32,406 bases of DNA from Bacteroidaceae bacterium. GTDB lineage: Bacteria; Bacteroidota; Bacteroidia; Bacteroidales; Bacteroidaceae. The stretch is from assembly GCA_017472635.1 (NCBI GenBank), contig JAFUPU010000038.1:1-32406 (forward strand). The letters run 5' to 3'. Of this stretch, positions 18,092 through 22,043 are shown piece after piece. Within the stretch, counting starts at the first letter, position 1. Every line of letters begins with the position of its first letter. A program made the position numbers and the translations under genes. The notes beneath the pieces were generated by a model. It ran no database searches. It was not told where the DNA came from and saw only the letters and a list, made by a program, of their open reading frames with translations.

Positions 18092-18132
18092 TCTCTTCCT
18101 TCTCTACATAGAGGGGGAAGAGATTGTTTTTT
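18092..18132 (+). terminator. Intrinsic terminator after the bamD-rpoZ-DUF4293 operon
   Basis: A 14-bp stem (18092-18105 with 18110-18123, including two G-T pairs), a 4-nt loop ACAT and a TTGTTTTTT tract. It separates the core operon from the TPR-TIR cassette. Confidence 0.85.
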
Positions 18133-18196: not shown

Positions 18197-18204
18197 TACT
18201 TTTG
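18197..18204 (+). promoter_or_regulatory. Candidate -7 element for the TPR-TIR operon
   Basis: An exact TACTTTTG lies 28 bp before the TPR gene's ATG (18233). A weak GTTT box sits about 19 bp upstream. It follows directly after the previous operon's terminator, so the cassette appears to have its own transcription unit. Confidence 0.55.
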
Positions 18205-18232: not shown

Positions 18233-20905
18233 ATGCAAAAATTCCTCACCATCTCAGTAACGCTATGCATGGCTGTCAGCCTTCTGGCTCAAAACCAACA
18301 GGCCATCGTGAAGACGCGAGGCAAACTCGATGACAATGGCAATGTGATTCCCGGACGTGGCTTGTCCGGAGCTTTTGTGAAAATTCGGGACGGCAATACG
18401 CACGAGAGCAAGGCGGAGGGGCTGTTGTCCTTTCCCGTACCGGGCGGCAAGTACTCCATCGAAAAGGTGACCTATGTGGACAACACGTCGCAGGAGCAGT
18501 ACCAATTGGTGGACATGGACGAATTGGGACGCTTTTTCAATTACTCCCCCACTCCCAAAGATATTCTGGTGACCACACAGTATGAAATAAACGAGGACCG
18601 CTTGGACGAGGAGATGCGTGCCCGCGAAGTGCTGATGAAAAACTATCGCAAGCGGCAGGAGGAAATCAAGCAGTTGCAGGCTGCCAACCAAATCAGCCGG
18701 GAAGAGGCACAGCGGCTCCGTCAACAACTGGTCGATGCTCAGGCCAACGAGGAAAAGCTCGTCAGCGACATGGCTGAACGTTATGCCAAGATGGATTTCG
18801 ACCGCATGAGTGACTTCGACCGCAGGTTTGCCCACTTCATCCGCTCGGGACAATTGGTGCGTGCCGACTCGCTCCTCCGCACCCAAGGGGATGTGTTTGC
18901 CATGGAAGACACGCTGCGGATGATACGTGAGGAGAATGCGGCAGGGCGAGAAATTATTGCCGACAAGGAGGCATCGCTGGCCCGCGACAAGACCGTACAG
19001 GCACAGAACGAAGCGTATGAAAAACAGCTGTTAGAGAAGATAGCGGACAACTTCTATAAGCGTTACGAAATCTTCTCGCAACAGTTTCTGCACGATTCTG
19101 CCGCCTTCTATTTGGAGCGACGCGCTCTGTTGGATACCACAAGGGTGGAGTGGCAGAATGAGGCAGGGATATATCTTGACGAGAATTTGGCTGATTATGG
19201 AAAAGCCCTATTCTATTATCAACGCAGTTTGCGCAATGCGAGGAAGCAATATGGTGAGCATAGTGAATGGGTAGCCACCAGTCTGAACAATATAGGTTAT
19301 GTTTACTCCTCTCAGGGAGAATATGACCAAGCATTGTCACATTACGAGGGAGCCTTGAAGATTAATCGGTCACTCTTTGGAGAGAACCATCCCGATGTAG
19401 CCAGCAGTCTGAACAATATAGGTTTGGTTTACTCCTCTCAGGGTGAATATGCACAGGCATTGTCACATTGCGAGAGAGCCTTGAAGATTTGGCGGGCTAT
19501 CTTTGGAGAGAACCATCCCGATGTAGCTATGAGTCTGAACAATATAGGTTCGGTTTACAATTCTCTGGGTGAATATGCTCAGGCATTGTCACATCACGAA
19601 GAAGCCTTGAAGATTCAGCGGGCTGTCTTCGGGGAGAACCATCCCAATGTAGCCTACAGCCTGAACAATATAGGTACAGTTTACTCCTCTCAGGGCAACT
19701 ATGCCCAAGCGTTGTCACATTACGAGGGAGCCTTGAAGATTTTTCGGGCTGTCTTTGGAGAGAACCATCCCGATGTGGTCACCTGTCTGAACAATATAGG
19801 TACAGTTTACTCCTCTCAAGGAGAATATGCACAGGCATTGTCACATCACGAGGAAGCCTTGAAGATTTGGCGGGCTGTCTTTGGAGAGAACCATCCCGAT
19901 GTAGCTATGAGTCTGAACAATATAGGTTATGTTTACAATTCTCTGGGTGAATATGCACAGGCATTGTCCTATTTTAAGGAAGCCTTGAAGATTGATCGGT
20001 CAATCTTTGGGGAGAGCCATCCTAAGGTAGCCACCACTCTGAACAATATAGGTTCAGTCTACGAATCTCAAGGTAACTATGCCCAGGCATTGTCACTTCA
20101 CAAGGAAGCCTTGAAGATTAAGCGGTCAATCTTTGGGGAGAACCATCCCGATGTAGCCACCACTCTGAACAATATAGGTAATGTTTACAATTCTCAGGGC
20201 AACTATGCCCAAGCATTGTCCTATTACGAGGAAGCTTTGAAGATTCGGCGGGCATTCTTTGGGGAGAATCATCCCAATGTTGCCACCTGTCTGAGCGATA
20301 TAGGTTTAGTCTACGGATATCAAGGTAACTATGCCCAGGCATTGTCACTTCACAAGGAAGCTTTGAAGATTCAGCGGGCTGTCTTTGGAGAGAATCATCC
20401 CAATGTAGCCACCTGTCTGAACAATATAGGTTTGGTTTACTTCTCTCAGGGAGAATATGCACAGGCATTGTCACTTCACAAGGAAGCCTTGAAGATTTTG
20501 CGGGCTGTCGTTGGAGATAACCATCCCAATGTAGCCACCACTCTGAACAATATAGGTTTTATTAACTATTCTCAGGGTGAATATTTGAAAGTGAAAACAG
20601 AATATGTGTTTACAGCCACGATAATTGGTGGCGATACTCCCGCAGCAAAACAAGGTTTGGCAGGTGAGTATTTGTTGTTGGAATTTGCGGATTGGAACCA
20701 GGATTGTTCAATGAATCTGTTTGATAAGAATTCGGAACTGAAAGGAAAACCCAAATCTTTACTATTAATGAAAGAGGGTGTGATAAAGCGATACGATTTC
20801 GAAAATACAATCGGTGCAGGATTGGGGCTGAAGTATGTAGGAAAAAAAGAGAGACAGCTGGTGAATGACGCTTATCGTAAATGGAAGAATGAAAATGAAC
20901 AATAA
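18233..20905 (+). CDS. Exported TPR-array protein, partner of the TIR protein
   Basis: An 890-residue predicted periplasmic protein. Order of parts: signal peptide (1-20, ending LLAQ); a carboxypeptidase-regulatory-like beta-sandwich (about 24-85, with RGLSGAFVKIRDG and FPVPGGKYSIEKV); a charged coiled coil (about 125-190); a helical linker; and ten consecutive 42-residue kinesin-light-chain-type TPRs from residue 347 to 766 plus a partial eleventh. Each TPR reads roughly LNNIGxVYxSQGEYAQALSH then EALKIxRAxFGENHP. A C-terminal domain of about 100 residues (GEYLLLEFADW, ENTIGAGLGLKYVGKKE) is not one I can name. The Cys at position 12 does not form a lipobox, so it is probably soluble. It overlaps the TIR gene by 11-17 bp, implying translational coupling. 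Such arrays usually bind peptides or proteins; a sensor or scaffold role is inference. Confidence 0.85.
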   Translation: MQKFLTISVTLCMAVSLLAQNQQAIVKTRGKLDDNGNVIPGRGLSGAFVKIRDGNTHESKAEGLLSFPVPGGKYSIEKVTYVDNTSQEQYQLVDMDELGRFFNYSPTPKDILVTTQYEINEDRLDEEMRAREVLMKNYRKRQEEIKQLQAANQISREEAQRLRQQLVDAQANEEKLVSDMAERYAKMDFDRMSDFDRRFAHFIRSGQLVRADSLLRTQGDVFAMEDTLRMIREENAAGREIIADKEASLARDKTVQAQNEAYEKQLLEKIADNFYKRYEIFSQQFLHDSAAFYLERRALLDTTRVEWQNEAGIYLDENLADYGKALFYYQRSLRNARKQYGEHSEWVATSLNNIGYVYSSQGEYDQALSHYEGALKINRSLFGENHPDVASSLNNIGLVYSSQGEYAQALSHCERALKIWRAIFGENHPDVAMSLNNIGSVYNSLGEYAQALSHHEEALKIQRAVFGENHPNVAYSLNNIGTVYSSQGNYAQALSHYEGALKIFRAVFGENHPDVVTCLNNIGTVYSSQGEYAQALSHHEEALKIWRAVFGENHPDVAMSLNNIGYVYNSLGEYAQALSYFKEALKIDRSIFGESHPKVATTLNNIGSVYESQGNYAQALSLHKEALKIKRSIFGENHPDVATTLNNIGNVYNSQGNYAQALSYYEEALKIRRAFFGENHPNVATCLSDIGLVYGYQGNYAQALSLHKEALKIQRAVFGENHPNVATCLNNIGLVYFSQGEYAQALSLHKEALKILRAVVGDNHPNVATTLNNIGFINYSQGEYLKVKTEYVFTATIIGGDTPAAKQGLAGEYLLLEFADWNQDCSMNLFDKNSELKGKPKSLLLMKEGVIKRYDFENTIGAGLGLKYVGKKERQLVNDAYRKWKNENEQ
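19271..20592 (+). repeat. Ten tandem 126-bp repeats encoding TPRs, plus a partial eleventh
   Basis: Units begin at 19271 and recur every 126 bp, with the tenth ending at 20530 and a degenerate eleventh to about 20592. Long stretches such as CTGAACAATATAGGT and GAGAACCATCCC recur almost unchanged. The period is a whole number of codons, so unit gain or loss keeps the frame. Confidence 0.95.
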
Positions 20906-22043
20906 TACCACTACTTACAAATATTTCGCCTTCATCAGCTACAACCAGAAGGACACGAAGTGGGGCAGACGGTTACAGCGCAAGTTGGAATCGTACAAGA
21001 TGCCTGCCACGCTGTGCAGCGAACGGGGATGGGAACGGAAACCGATACAGCCCGTGTTCTTTGCCCCCTATGAGATACAGCCCGGGGACTTGGACGAGGA
21101 GCTGAAGGCAAGGTTACGGGCATCGCAAAACCTGATAGTGGTATGCTCGGCACAGTCGGCACAGTCGGACTGGGTGGGCAAGGAGATTCGCTATTTCCAT
21201 AGCCTCGGAAGGGCAGACCGCATCTATTTCTTCATCATAGACGGGGTACCCAACAGTGGCGACGAGGAGACGGAGTGTTACAACCCGGTTATCAAGGAAC
21301 TGGGGTTGGACGGGTACTTGGGGGTGAACATCCACGAACAGGTGTTCCGCAGTGCCTACCTGAACAGGGAACGCGCCTATGTGCAACTGGTGACCAAACT
21401 GTTGGGTGTGGAGTTCGACTCCATCTGGCAACGCCACCGGAGACAGCTGATAGAGAAGGCTGCCGCATGGTGTGTGGGCACAGTGATGGTGCTTTCGGCT
21501 CTATACGGTGCATGGGACATGAACCGTCCGGTAGACGTGCGTGTAGGGCTTCGGGAGACCTCTGCCGCAAACGCATCGTTGCCGCCATTGCGGGACGTGA
21601 AGGTGACCCTCACACTTGACAATGACAAGATAACCAAAGTCATCAGCAACCTTAACCACACAGCCATATTCCCCAACATCCCACGAAAAGAGTTTGGAAG
21701 GAAGGTGAGAGTGACGGTCACTGATTCGCTGAACCTGTACAACAGGACAGACACCACATTGCTACTCACCGACCGCATCACCCTGAACATTTGCCGAAAC
21801 CCTCGCCAATATGGCTCCGTAAAGTTCCGGCTCATCGACAGCAAGAGCTACCGACCGGTTCCCCACTGCGACATAGTGATAGAGGGCATAGAAGGAGTGA
21901 CTGACGAAAACGGCAATGCAAGCATCACCATCCCCCTGCCCAGACAAAAGACAAAATACCACATCCGGGCAGACGTAGAACTTGAGGATAGCATCTGCAA
22001 CGGAGCATACGATGAAGACGGCTTTGTGATTTTCACCCGATAA
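20889..22043 (+). CDS. Membrane-anchored TIR-domain protein with periplasmic beta-sandwich
   Basis: A 384-residue protein with three parts. The N-terminal TIR domain (about 10-165) has strand A YKYFAFISYNQKD, then LIVVCSAQSAQSDWVGKEI. The DWVxKE segment matches the helix that carries the catalytic glutamate in NAD-cleaving TIRs such as SARM1; here it is Glu99. One transmembrane helix (about 190-209) follows the basic run QRHRRQ, so the TIR domain should face the cytosol. The rest is a beta-rich, presumably periplasmic region with carboxypeptidase-regulatory-like features (GVTDENGNASITI). The start is either 20889 (MKMNNN) or 20895 (MNNN), both inside the end of the TPR gene; an ATG at 20865 lies deeper in that gene and is less likely. 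NADase activity and a defence or signalling role are inferred from the family. Confidence 0.82.
   Translation: MKMNNNTTTYKYFAFISYNQKDTKWGRRLQRKLESYKMPATLCSERGWERKPIQPVFFAPYEIQPGDLDEELKARLRASQNLIVVCSAQSAQSDWVGKEIRYFHSLGRADRIYFFIIDGVPNSGDEETECYNPVIKELGLDGYLGVNIHEQVFRSAYLNRERAYVQLVTKLLGVEFDSIWQRHRRQLIEKAAAWCVGTVMVLSALYGAWDMNRPVDVRVGLRETSAANASLPPLRDVKVTLTLDNDKITKVISNLNHTAIFPNIPRKEFGRKVRVTVTDSLNLYNRTDTTLLLTDRITLNICRNPRQYGSVKFRLIDSKSYRPVPHCDIVIEGIEGVTDENGNASITIPLPRQKTKYHIRADVELEDSICNGAYDEDGFVIFTR

Follow-up and report, generated by a model that had tools for sequence, protein, structure and literature searches.

A conserved gene pair for a secreted TPR protein and a membrane TIR protein in gut bacteria, with linkage to RyR-domain and channel-type genes

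What a secreted repeat protein and a membrane-anchored TIR protein might accomplish together is the question raised by two overlapping genes in the window, the whole 32,406-nucleotide stretch of Bacteroidaceae DNA analyzed here. The initial annotation read the pair as an envelope sensor coupled to a cytosolic NADase. The two open reading frames that it named, 18233–20905 (890 aa) and 20865–22043 (392 aa), are borne out, as is its overlap of 11–17 bp. The second frame holds three in-frame ATGs (20865, 20889, and 20895); the last yields an overlap of 11 bp and the middle one 17 bp, while a start at the first would extend it to 41 bp. Upstream of the pair lies TACTTTTG, which fits TAnnTTTG, the Bacteroides -7 box consensus. 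The terminator-like hairpin in Table 1 is weak as sole evidence, since the consensus scan found seven such sites against 4.7 expected in shuffles. Judging by their translations, the neighbors of the pair in the window look like housekeeping genes, and neither a RyR gene nor a channel gene occurs in the window.

Table 1. Features of the TPR–TIR locus (positions in the window)
Feature	Position	Strand	Basis
Hairpin resembling an intrinsic terminator, between the DUF4293 and TPR genes	18092..18123	+	Consensus scan; 14-pair stem, T-rich tail
TACTTTTG, fits Bacteroides -7 box (TAnnTTTG)	18197..18204	+	Read from sequence
Gene 1, secreted TPR partner, 890 aa	18233..20905	+	ORF; Pfam TPR_12 2.3e-212
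Signal peptide without lipobox Cys	18233..18289	+	Translation inspected
N-domain: weakly CarboxypepD_reg-like beta domain, then a helical stretch, probably coiled-coil	18290..19237	+	Homologs, alignment
Repeat array, ten full and one incomplete kinesin-light-chain-type TPR units of 42 aa each	19262..20584	+	
C-terminal domain without Pfam match	20558..20902	+	TPR-type partners of 11 of 80 loci
Gene 2, TIR–TM–beta-sandwich protein, 382 aa from ATG 20895	20895..22043	+	ORF, Pfam
Cytosolic TIR domain (predicted side; outer limits approximate)	20919..21434	+	Pfam TIR_2, ThsB_TIR
Codon of putative catalytic Glu (WVGKE)	21183..21185	+	Conserved without exception in the 78 aligned relatives
Predicted single transmembrane helix, N-in (limits approximate)	21447..21521	+	Hydropathy, positive-inside count
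Predicted periplasmic beta-sandwich tail	21522..22040	+	Sub-threshold beta-sandwich match; conserved in family A3

The repeat array of the first gene is highly regular. Eleven unit starts are spaced exactly 42 aa apart, with the final unit incomplete; the DNA units are 76% identical on average, and Tandem Repeats Finder reports 10.4 copies of 126 bp with 82% matches. The ten TPRs originally counted are thus a fair description. The N-domain is the family marker of the TPR partner, with homologs in seven other genomes of 301, and its iterated profile is matched by 120 proteins across the 80 loci described below. CarboxypepD_reg was sub-threshold in both N-domain relatives scanned (n = 2). The 11 loci with the C-terminal domain include L125, L131, L142, and L147, and this domain shows 60% identity across 100 residues in genome G134. 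The proposal that both proteins carry beta-sandwiches gains weak support from a family-versus-family profile comparison (34% probability, P = 4e-4, over 34 columns).

The product of the second gene exceeds the Pfam cut-offs for both TIR_2 (2.7e-10; 41.2 bits against 28) and ThsB_TIR (9.4e-8; 32.8 bits against 21.2), and the best PDB match of the family's TIR profile is TLR2, at a weak E-value of 0.0026. Relatives of this protein numbered 364, of which 80 named ones were kept. All loci counts rest on these 80, while Glu conservation, topology, and the TIR tree were computed on 78 aligned relatives. The residue annotated as Glu99 corresponds to E107 in the longest reading of the gene and E97 in the shortest. 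W93 and E97, the latter four residues after the Trp, are invariant (78 of 78), which argues against a non-catalytic TIR, although a single Glu does not establish activity; residues of this kind have a role in catalytic NADase TIRs. A single hydrophobic segment follows the TIR domain; in the window's protein its mean hydropathy is 1.57, the lowest among the 78. Lys and Arg in the 15 residues before the segment outnumber those after it in all 78 proteins, though by only 3 to 2 in the window's own. The TIR domain is therefore predicted by the positive-inside rule to be cytosolic, as the initial annotation supposed, and the tail extracytoplasmic.

The TPR and TIR genes are a conserved pair. In 67 of the 80 loci a same-strand partner with the N-domain and TPRs is found no more than 300 bp away; an adjacent partner is missing in the other 13, six of which have none anywhere in the locus. 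Among 301 family genomes, all eight with the TPR N-domain fall among the nine with a full-length TIR protein. Pairing, Glu, and predicted topology agree with the initial annotation, and none of its three refuting conditions came true. A setting in a defense island is not supported, given few PADLOC matches among 93 near neighbors and the housekeeping-like surroundings in the window. RyR and channel genes, treated below, were missing from the initial model. At 1e-10, ten PADLOC families were matched among the 93 flanking proteins (a raw count with no background rate), nine by one protein each and caspase by four. PrsW protease, MscS, CHAT (6 of 80 loci), caspase (a domain found in 4 of the 93 flanking proteins), and a second TIR occur at some TIR loci.

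Several other settings were considered and set aside. For example, eight plasmid records match the TIR part alone, none over more than 80% of the query, and phage records gave zero matches. The FxSxx/FxsC RiPP system falls below its cut-offs, at 289.5 bits against 300 for the TPR match and 12.8 against 130 for FxsC. In the rlmI-side flank of 14 genus relatives (2.5–6.2 kb each) the pair occurs in none; this is no clean empty site, because the rlmI flank varies between genomes and the bamD and DUF4293 genes are also absent there.

The related loci do suggest an output. RyR-domain (PF02026) proteins are encoded at 22 of the 80 loci, and of the 23 RyR matches, 12 are separated from the TIR gene by no more than 60 bp. 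At 37 loci there are channel-type proteins or subunits (E below 1e-20), a count that includes subunits and partial frames, and 25 loci encode a full-length (>650 aa) channel-type protein, 11 of family A and 14 of family B. Taken together, RyR genes or RCK-type channel-type genes with RyR-like tails are present at 45 of the 80 loci and neither at 35; where the sequence extends 5 kb or more to either side (53 loci), 33 carry one or the other. Contiguous four-gene arrangements recur in two orders: channel–TPR–TIR–RyR (L131, L142, and L147) and channel–RyR–TIR–TPR (L128, L145, and L137). At L126 the order is channel–RyR–TIR, and the sequence stops short of any TPR gene.

These same loci supplied the profile seeds for channel, PrsW, MscS, and CHAT, and the counts in the 301 family genomes are separate. 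There, RyR is found in 8 of 9 genomes with a full-length TIR protein versus 32 of 292 others (p = 4e-7), the channel in 9 of 9 versus 31 of 292 (p = 6e-9), and of the 40 genomes with RyR, 29 also have the channel (p = 2e-22), Fisher p-values that are inflated by the phylogenetic non-independence of the genomes. Four of 25 TIR-bearing genomes have neither. RyR is not tied solely to this TIR family, since 22 of the 276 genomes that lack the family have RyR as well. On the TIR tree, the label "RyR or channel-type present" (43 of 78 rows) requires 21 changes, whereas shuffles need 25.8 on average and 16 of 500 get down to 21; the linkage is scattered over the tree with only mild clustering.

The window's own genome carries both candidate output genes on a different contig. 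Its RyR gene scores 126.7 bits, against a PF02026 cut-off of 27.4, and lies 48 bp before a gene for a 945-aa candidate channel with a Slo-like RCK domain. Since this RyR/channel pair sits on another contig of a metagenome-assembled genome (MAG) that is 65% complete, bin contamination is possible. In the test of MAG membership for contig C113, its nadE-like protein was 57–62% identical to genus relatives, the corresponding values being 85–90% for rlmI and 58–65% for another window gene, and GC content was 46.2% versus 46.9%, values that leave the assignment of C113 to this MAG a provisional one.

The RyR proteins retain the residues expected of a ligand-binding domain. According to a 2026 preprint (PMC13232231), RyDEP, a phage RyR protein, binds 2'/3'cADPR through H75, W78, H100, and D117. 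The linked bacterial proteins have counterparts at identical spacing (H29, W32, H54, and D71); H29, W32, and D71 are present in 24 of 24 aligned proteins and H54 in at least 90%. The same preprint describes RyDEP as a glycosidase with an H/D catalytic dyad, both residues of which are invariant in the 24, and reports that none of the other RyDEP homologs tested degraded the signal, although 6 of 8 bound it (PMC13232231). Conserved residues are hence no proof of hydrolysis.

The tails of the channel-type proteins appear to be related to the same domain. Profile comparison with RyR gives P = 4e-6 for each of the two channel families, versus 0.16 for the TIR family as a control, and the tails keep the H, W, H, and D, each invariant or in at least 90%. 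Pfam RyR stays below its cut-off in every scanned channel protein (best 23.1 bits versus 27.4), and the similarity would be one of remote homology as seen by profile comparison alone. The MscS-linked subunit does not match RyR significantly when compared directly (P = 0.075); its match to the second half of family B is strong (P = 5e-25). The family-B profile finds its best PDB matches, at marginal E-values, in CASTOR/DMI1 and, for the C-terminus, in ryanodine receptors. Slo-like_RCK is above cut-off in two scanned members, that of the window's own genome (1.5e-8) and that of L122, and other scanned channel-type members have NAD-binding, sub-threshold, or no Pfam matches. With the pore judged by eye from hydrophobic segments, an RCK-gated channel is a candidate assignment.

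The recurrence of RyR proteins and of channel-type proteins with RyR-like tails points away from mere depletion of NAD and toward signaling via an NAD-derived nucleotide. The reading favored here, with modest confidence, is that an envelope event acts through the TPR protein on the TIR protein, whose cADPR-type signal reaches RyR domains and gates a channel. The pair would form the input half of a membrane signaling circuit. The periplasmic TPR protein may sense or bind an envelope-side ligand via its repeat array and act on the TIR protein's periplasmic sandwich, the signal crossing the single transmembrane helix. Cytosolic TIR domains would then assemble and convert NAD+ to a cyclic-ADP-ribose-type nucleotide. 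In the output half, made up of RyR-domain proteins, that nucleotide would gate the RyR-like tails of RCK-type channels, and an open channel would change the ion permeability of the membrane. The small stand-alone RyR protein might buffer or hydrolyze the signal in the manner of related phage proteins. For the window's genome, action in trans is proposed, since the RyR protein and 945-aa channel of the output half are encoded on a separate contig. The presumed benefit to the cell is a response to phage or envelope stress.

One alternative is a plain suicide device in which the TPR protein detects damage to the envelope or adsorbing phage and the TIR protein simply depletes NAD+, with RyR and channel genes as bystanders or independent genes. 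The invariant Glu would suit such a device, as would the 35 loci without RyR or channel-type genes, and some bacterial TIRs, SpbK among them, are NADases acting via abortive infection. However, bystanders would hardly be expected to crowd within 60 bp of the TIR gene, to recur with it in two four-gene orders, or to show so strong an association across 301 genomes, and near neighbors are otherwise seldom defense-like; this reading is considered unlikely.

Less likely still is that RyR is an eraser or antidote lowering the TIR signal, with the channel a separate stress valve and caspase, CHAT, and others the main effectors. The invariant H/D dyad and the caspase and CHAT genes speak for it, but the other RyDEP homologs tested in the preprint failed to degrade the signal, though 6 of 8 bound it (PMC13232231), and the channel tails too keep the four ligand residues. 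As a further alternative, the TIR domain might be a non-enzymatic scaffold that clusters membrane proteins as Toll adaptors do, the pair being an envelope-stress or adhesion complex. TPRs are protein-interaction modules, and Toll-like receptors give the TIR profile its best PDB matches, though weak ones. Against this improbable reading stand the invariant W93 and E97, and the linkage to RyR, a cADPR-isomer-binding domain type, is hard to account for without a nucleotide.

The proposed circuit resembles Thoeris in its TIR domain with conserved Glu, in the ThsB_TIR match, and in weak PADLOC ThsB matches. Many relatives also adjoin genes for a cADPR-isomer-binding domain type, reminiscent of Thoeris 2'/3'cADPR signaling. 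Thoeris ThsB is soluble and cytosolic, whereas the TIR protein here is predicted to be anchored in the membrane and to carry an ectodomain in the periplasm, and its TPR partner is secreted; one transmembrane segment and an extracytoplasmic tail are assigned by sequence rule in 78 of 78. In Thoeris the adjacent effector is of the ThsA type, with SIR2/SLOG or a Macro sensor; no ThsA model was matched among the 93 flanking proteins of relatives (PADLOC, 1e-10), and the candidate reader here is instead a RyR domain and the candidate effector a channel. The RyR proteins share Pfam family, ligand residues, and spacing with RyDEP and other phage RyR proteins (PMC13232231). In contrast to phage RyDEP, their genes are bacterial and adjoin the TIR gene itself, so RyR would be part of a circuit and not a viral countermeasure.

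Family-B proteins match the RCK region of CASTOR/DMI1 (E = 0.0055–0.0089) and, in the two Slo-like_RCK members, resemble Slo-type channels; what sets them apart from both is their bacterial origin, the linked TIR, and a C-terminal tail that resembles RyR. Animal Toll-like receptors share the arrangement predicted here, in which one transmembrane segment joins a domain outside the cell to a TIR in the cytosol. The TIR here is N-terminal, however, the ectodomain is small, and the TPR partner is separate; the likeness does not imply shared ancestry of the whole arrangement. The RyR repeat domain is also common to animal cADPR–ryanodine receptor calcium release. A 2025 survey by Yirmiya et al. reportedly covers bacterial TIR genes with diverse effectors. 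Its systems may overlap with the present family, some relatives of which likewise have caspase and CHAT genes nearby. A broader claim is advanced only tentatively, and we rather doubt it in full: that in Bacteroidales a periplasmic TPR sensor, a TIR protein, its cADPR-type product, RyR-domain channels, and a RyR eraser form a receptor-to-channel circuit that would be the bacterial counterpart, and possibly the source, of both Toll-like topology and cADPR–ryanodine-receptor signaling.

Most of the bacterial TIR systems investigated to date are soluble and detect phage inside the cell. The carriers of the two-gene receptor are gut bacteria, and their TIR family would place its sensor outside the inner membrane while being linked genetically to RyR domains. 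A long open question, whether cADPR-type signals have their natural receptors in RyR domains, could be put to a direct test in this family, as could the question of whether nucleotides made by bacterial TIRs open ion channels. If the circuit is real, it suggests an alarm in which a signal from outside is turned into a small molecule and the small molecule into an open channel.

Two genes only lie between housekeeping flanks in the window, as judged from inspected translations. Gene 1 encodes a secreted TPR protein of 890 aa whose C-terminal domain is without a Pfam match, and gene 2 encodes the TIR protein. The overlap of 11–17 bp that the initial annotation gave for them was borne out by ORF reading. 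Since a terminator-like hairpin and what we take to be a box of the TAnnTTTG-type consensus precede gene 1, the pair is probably a separate transcription unit. It is accessory, being found beside rlmI in 0 of 14 genus relatives, though the rlmI flank is rearranged among genomes. A block with several TTGCAGGACTCA copies, recognized by eye, follows the TIR gene and includes an inverted copy (arms of 16–19 nt, 95–100% complementarity). The window is a single contig (C104) of a 2.14-Mb MAG that is 65% complete and, judging by its relatives, probably comes from a Bacteroidales member of Bacteroidaceae/Prevotella type.

Features of the window, of a second contig of the same MAG (C113, locus L153) and of loci of TIR relatives (other L numbers)
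Feature	Contig or locus	Position	Details
Left neighbours	C104		uvrB, BamD-like lipoprotein, DUF4293 (by Pfam)
Gene 1, TPR partner	C104	18233–20905 (+)	signal peptide (by eye), N-domain, TPR units, C-terminal domain
Gene 2	C104	20889 or 20895 (ATG) to 22043	TIR, one TM helix, predicted beta-sandwich
Repeat block	C104	22095–22200	3′ of TIR gene
Right neighbours	C104		RlmI-like methyltransferase, DUF5063 (by Pfam), ftsK, trxB
Gene run	C113	1846–8169	nadE-like, hisB-like, RyR and RCK channel-type genes in succession, one strand
RyR gene	C113	4996–5283	sole copy; 48 bp before channel-type gene
Channel-type gene	C113	5332–8169	945 aa
MscS-type gene and RCK-like subunit	L098	6632–8664
MscS-type gene and RCK-like subunit	L106, L117, L151, L079, L100, L107, L132
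Short N-domain paralog	L057	10047–11006	adjoins TIR gene
Short N-domain paralog	L055	3983–4954	adjoins TIR gene
Short N-domain paralog	L058	11154–12122	beside TIR gene
Short N-domain paralog	L060	12128–13087	beside TIR gene
Secreted-looking protein, ~500 aa	L108	6277–7785	directly upstream of TIR gene
Secreted-looking protein, ~500 aa	L111	6429–7940	directly upstream of TIR gene

The two genes also occur together elsewhere, in line with the cassette first proposed. Relatives of the TIR protein were found at 1e-10 in 25 of 301 genomes of the family, and the full-length form (at least 46% identity) in nine, own genome counted. The N-domain that marks the TPR partner occurs in eight of the 301, every one within these nine; in the ninth (G087), the contig start cuts the TPR ORF, 16 bp before the TIR gene. 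At order level, six of 295 genomes match at 1e-60, again with the own genome counted. A scan of named genomes yielded 364 relatives, the best 80 of which form the locus set used here; by their labels, nearly all of these belong to Bacteroidota MAGs from gut or rumen, and one belongs to Lachnospiraceae, possibly through mislabelling. Of these best 80, 67 have an N-domain or TPR frame in the same orientation as the TIR gene and no more than 300 bp from it, 74 have such a frame anywhere in the locus, and six have none.

Seventy-eight TIR proteins were aligned, namely that of the window and those of 77 of the 80 loci (three were left out, an overlapping frame having been picked there). Within 15 residues on either side of the TM helix, Lys/Arg are more numerous before than after it in 78/78 (means 4.8 vs 1.3), with a small margin of 3 vs 2 in the window protein, whose TM hydropathy is the lowest of the 78. 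Because of this excess, the TIR domain should lie in the cytosol and the tail in the periplasm, on the same side as the secreted TPR protein, as initially drawn. Glu97 (the putative catalytic Glu, Glu99 of the initial annotation; numbered here from the ATG at 20895) and Trp93 are invariant in 78/78.

The array of gene 1 comprises 42-residue TPR units, ten complete, as counted previously, and one partial, with a mean DNA identity of 76% over all eleven. Most positions of the unit are near-invariant and variation is greatest at, for example, 13, 16, 27, 28 and 35, a pattern that would fit an expanded scaffold whose binding face can change. Since 35 of the 80 loci hold at least two N-domain/TPR frames (two in 20, three in 12, four in 2, six in 1), a single TIR may serve several TPR partners. 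The short N-domain paralogs at four loci (~320 aa, no TPR array) are possibly regulator or decoy subunits. In another relative (G134), contig ends cut the TPR-partner genes of L068, L069, L070 and L071 (contigs C9, C13, C4 and C30), two of which begin with identical residues; the assembly may have been broken there by recombining copies or by paralogs that are nearly identical. At L108 and L111, the TPR partner is further off; the secreted-looking proteins there resemble by eye the BspA-type LRR proteins, five of which occur in the flank set described below, and LRR sensors may thus replace TPR sensors.

Proteins of ~97 residues adjoining the TIR gene in various relatives are RyR-domain proteins (PF02026; E 4e-36 at L125). 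A six-frame profile search of the 80 loci (1.16 Mb) gave 23 RyR matches in 22 loci, 12 of the 23 within 60 bp of the TIR gene. Large proteins that end in a RyR-like domain are likewise present and fall into family A (e.g., L131, L093) and family B (e.g., L145, L128). Full-length channel-type proteins (>650 aa) occur in 25/80 loci (family A in 11, family B in 14). With subunits and partial frames counted, a channel-type protein (<1e-20) is found in 37/80, either this or a RyR protein in 45/80, and a channel-type or RyR protein in 33 of the 53 loci that extend 5 kb or more to either side. The four-gene order is channel-TPR-TIR-RyR in L131, L142 and L147 and channel-RyR-TIR-TPR in L128, L145 and L137; L126 follows the second order but is cut before a TPR gene. 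At the level of sequence, the TPR-TIR pairing, the TIR topology and the linkage to RyR and channel genes are shown. Eight of the 80 loci have an MscS-type channel, and each of these eight abuts a frame of 344–431 residues that is related to the latter half of family B. This looks as if different pores could be combined with one constant gating half; together, channel and frame could form a split, nucleotide-gated mechanosensitive-type channel.

In the scanned channel-type proteins, the Pfam RyR model stayed below its cut-off (best 23.1 vs 27.4 bits; several without a match). Profile comparison with 24 RyR proteins gave P 4e-6 for family A and P 4e-6 for family B, against 0.16 for the TIR family as control; the MscS-linked subunit had no direct match to the RyR profile (P 0.075). 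A PDB profile search with family B returned CASTOR, DMI1 and, C-terminally, ryanodine receptors at marginal E values (0.0055–0.071), and the own-genome channel-type protein has a Slo-like RCK domain above cut-off. According to a May 2026 preprint (PMC13232231), phage RyR-domain proteins bind 2′cADPR and 3′cADPR, two with nanomolar constants, one hydrolyses both, and the ligand contacts are H75, W78, H100 and D117; TIR-linked bacterial RyR genes are not mentioned in the passages covered. The RyR proteins of the own genome and of TIR loci have counterparts of these residues at identical spacing (+3, +25, +42), with H29, W32 and D71 invariant in 24/24 and H54 at least 90% conserved. The channel tails keep H..W and the 17-residue H-to-D spacing, each residue being invariant or at least 90% conserved.

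RyR and family B each occur in 40 of the 301 family genomes. By p values that ignore kinship and so overstate the association, RyR is associated with the full-length TIR form (8/9 genomes vs 32/292 others, p 4e-7), as is the channel (9/9 vs 31/292, p 6e-9), and the two occur together in 29/301 (p 2e-22). Among all 25 TIR genomes, RyR is present in 18, the channel in 17 and neither in four; RyR is also present in 22 of the 276 genomes lacking the TIR family. In the family genomes, a RyR place lies within 5 kb of 17 of 47 channel places. Of 38 TIR places there, 9 have RyR and 7 the channel within 15 kb, so that separation of the two halves is commoner than in the 80 loci. The own genome has its input half (TPR-TIR) on C104 and its output half (RyR-channel), downstream of genes reading as nadE and hisB, on C113 of an incomplete MAG in which a binning error is possible; the two halves may act together.

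A defence-island setting, raised in the initial annotation, is not supported by the flanks. The flank set comprised 93 near non-system neighbours, with no more than one taken from each side of the 53 full-context loci and with genes excluded if they had <110 or >900 aa or lay at a contig end. PADLOC at 1e-10 matched ten families in it, caspase in four proteins and the other nine in one each. Pfam matched 63 families, and among the 25 listed none occurs in more than 5/93: LRR_5 in five, caspase in four and TIR in four, the remainder being largely ordinary metabolic, translation or uncharacterised. Plasmid records yielded no near-full-length homolog and phage records none; these results and the sparse flank matches speak against a classical defence island, and the window's neighbours read as housekeeping. 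The TPR-TIR-RyR circuit would work like Thoeris, but its front end and the type of its reader would both be new. It is not classed as Thoeris because no ThsA was seen in the flank set and the TIR is a membrane protein. No description of a TPR-TIR-RyR/channel system was found in the titles and abstract openings of the open-licence matches listed or in passages of PMC7159879, a scope that does not extend to the closest survey preprint (Yirmiya 2025) or to Burroughs 2015.

We infer the enzyme activity of the TIR, the ligand, the channel gating and the purpose of the system, and lean slightly towards a single circuit. In it, an envelope event would act on the TPR sensor and this on the TIR receptor, which would make a cADPR-type nucleotide that gates the RyR-bearing channel, while the free RyR protein would buffer or erase the signal. 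Further genes at the 80 loci include CHAT (in six) and PrsW (in eight), as well as caspase and extra TIR genes. The PrsW-type intramembrane protease gene follows the TIR gene at a distance of no more than 100 bp in L089, L099, L102, L132, L133 and L143, hinting at a proteolytic output. The presence of caspase, CHAT, PrsW and extra TIR genes suggests a receptor-circuit family having several outputs.
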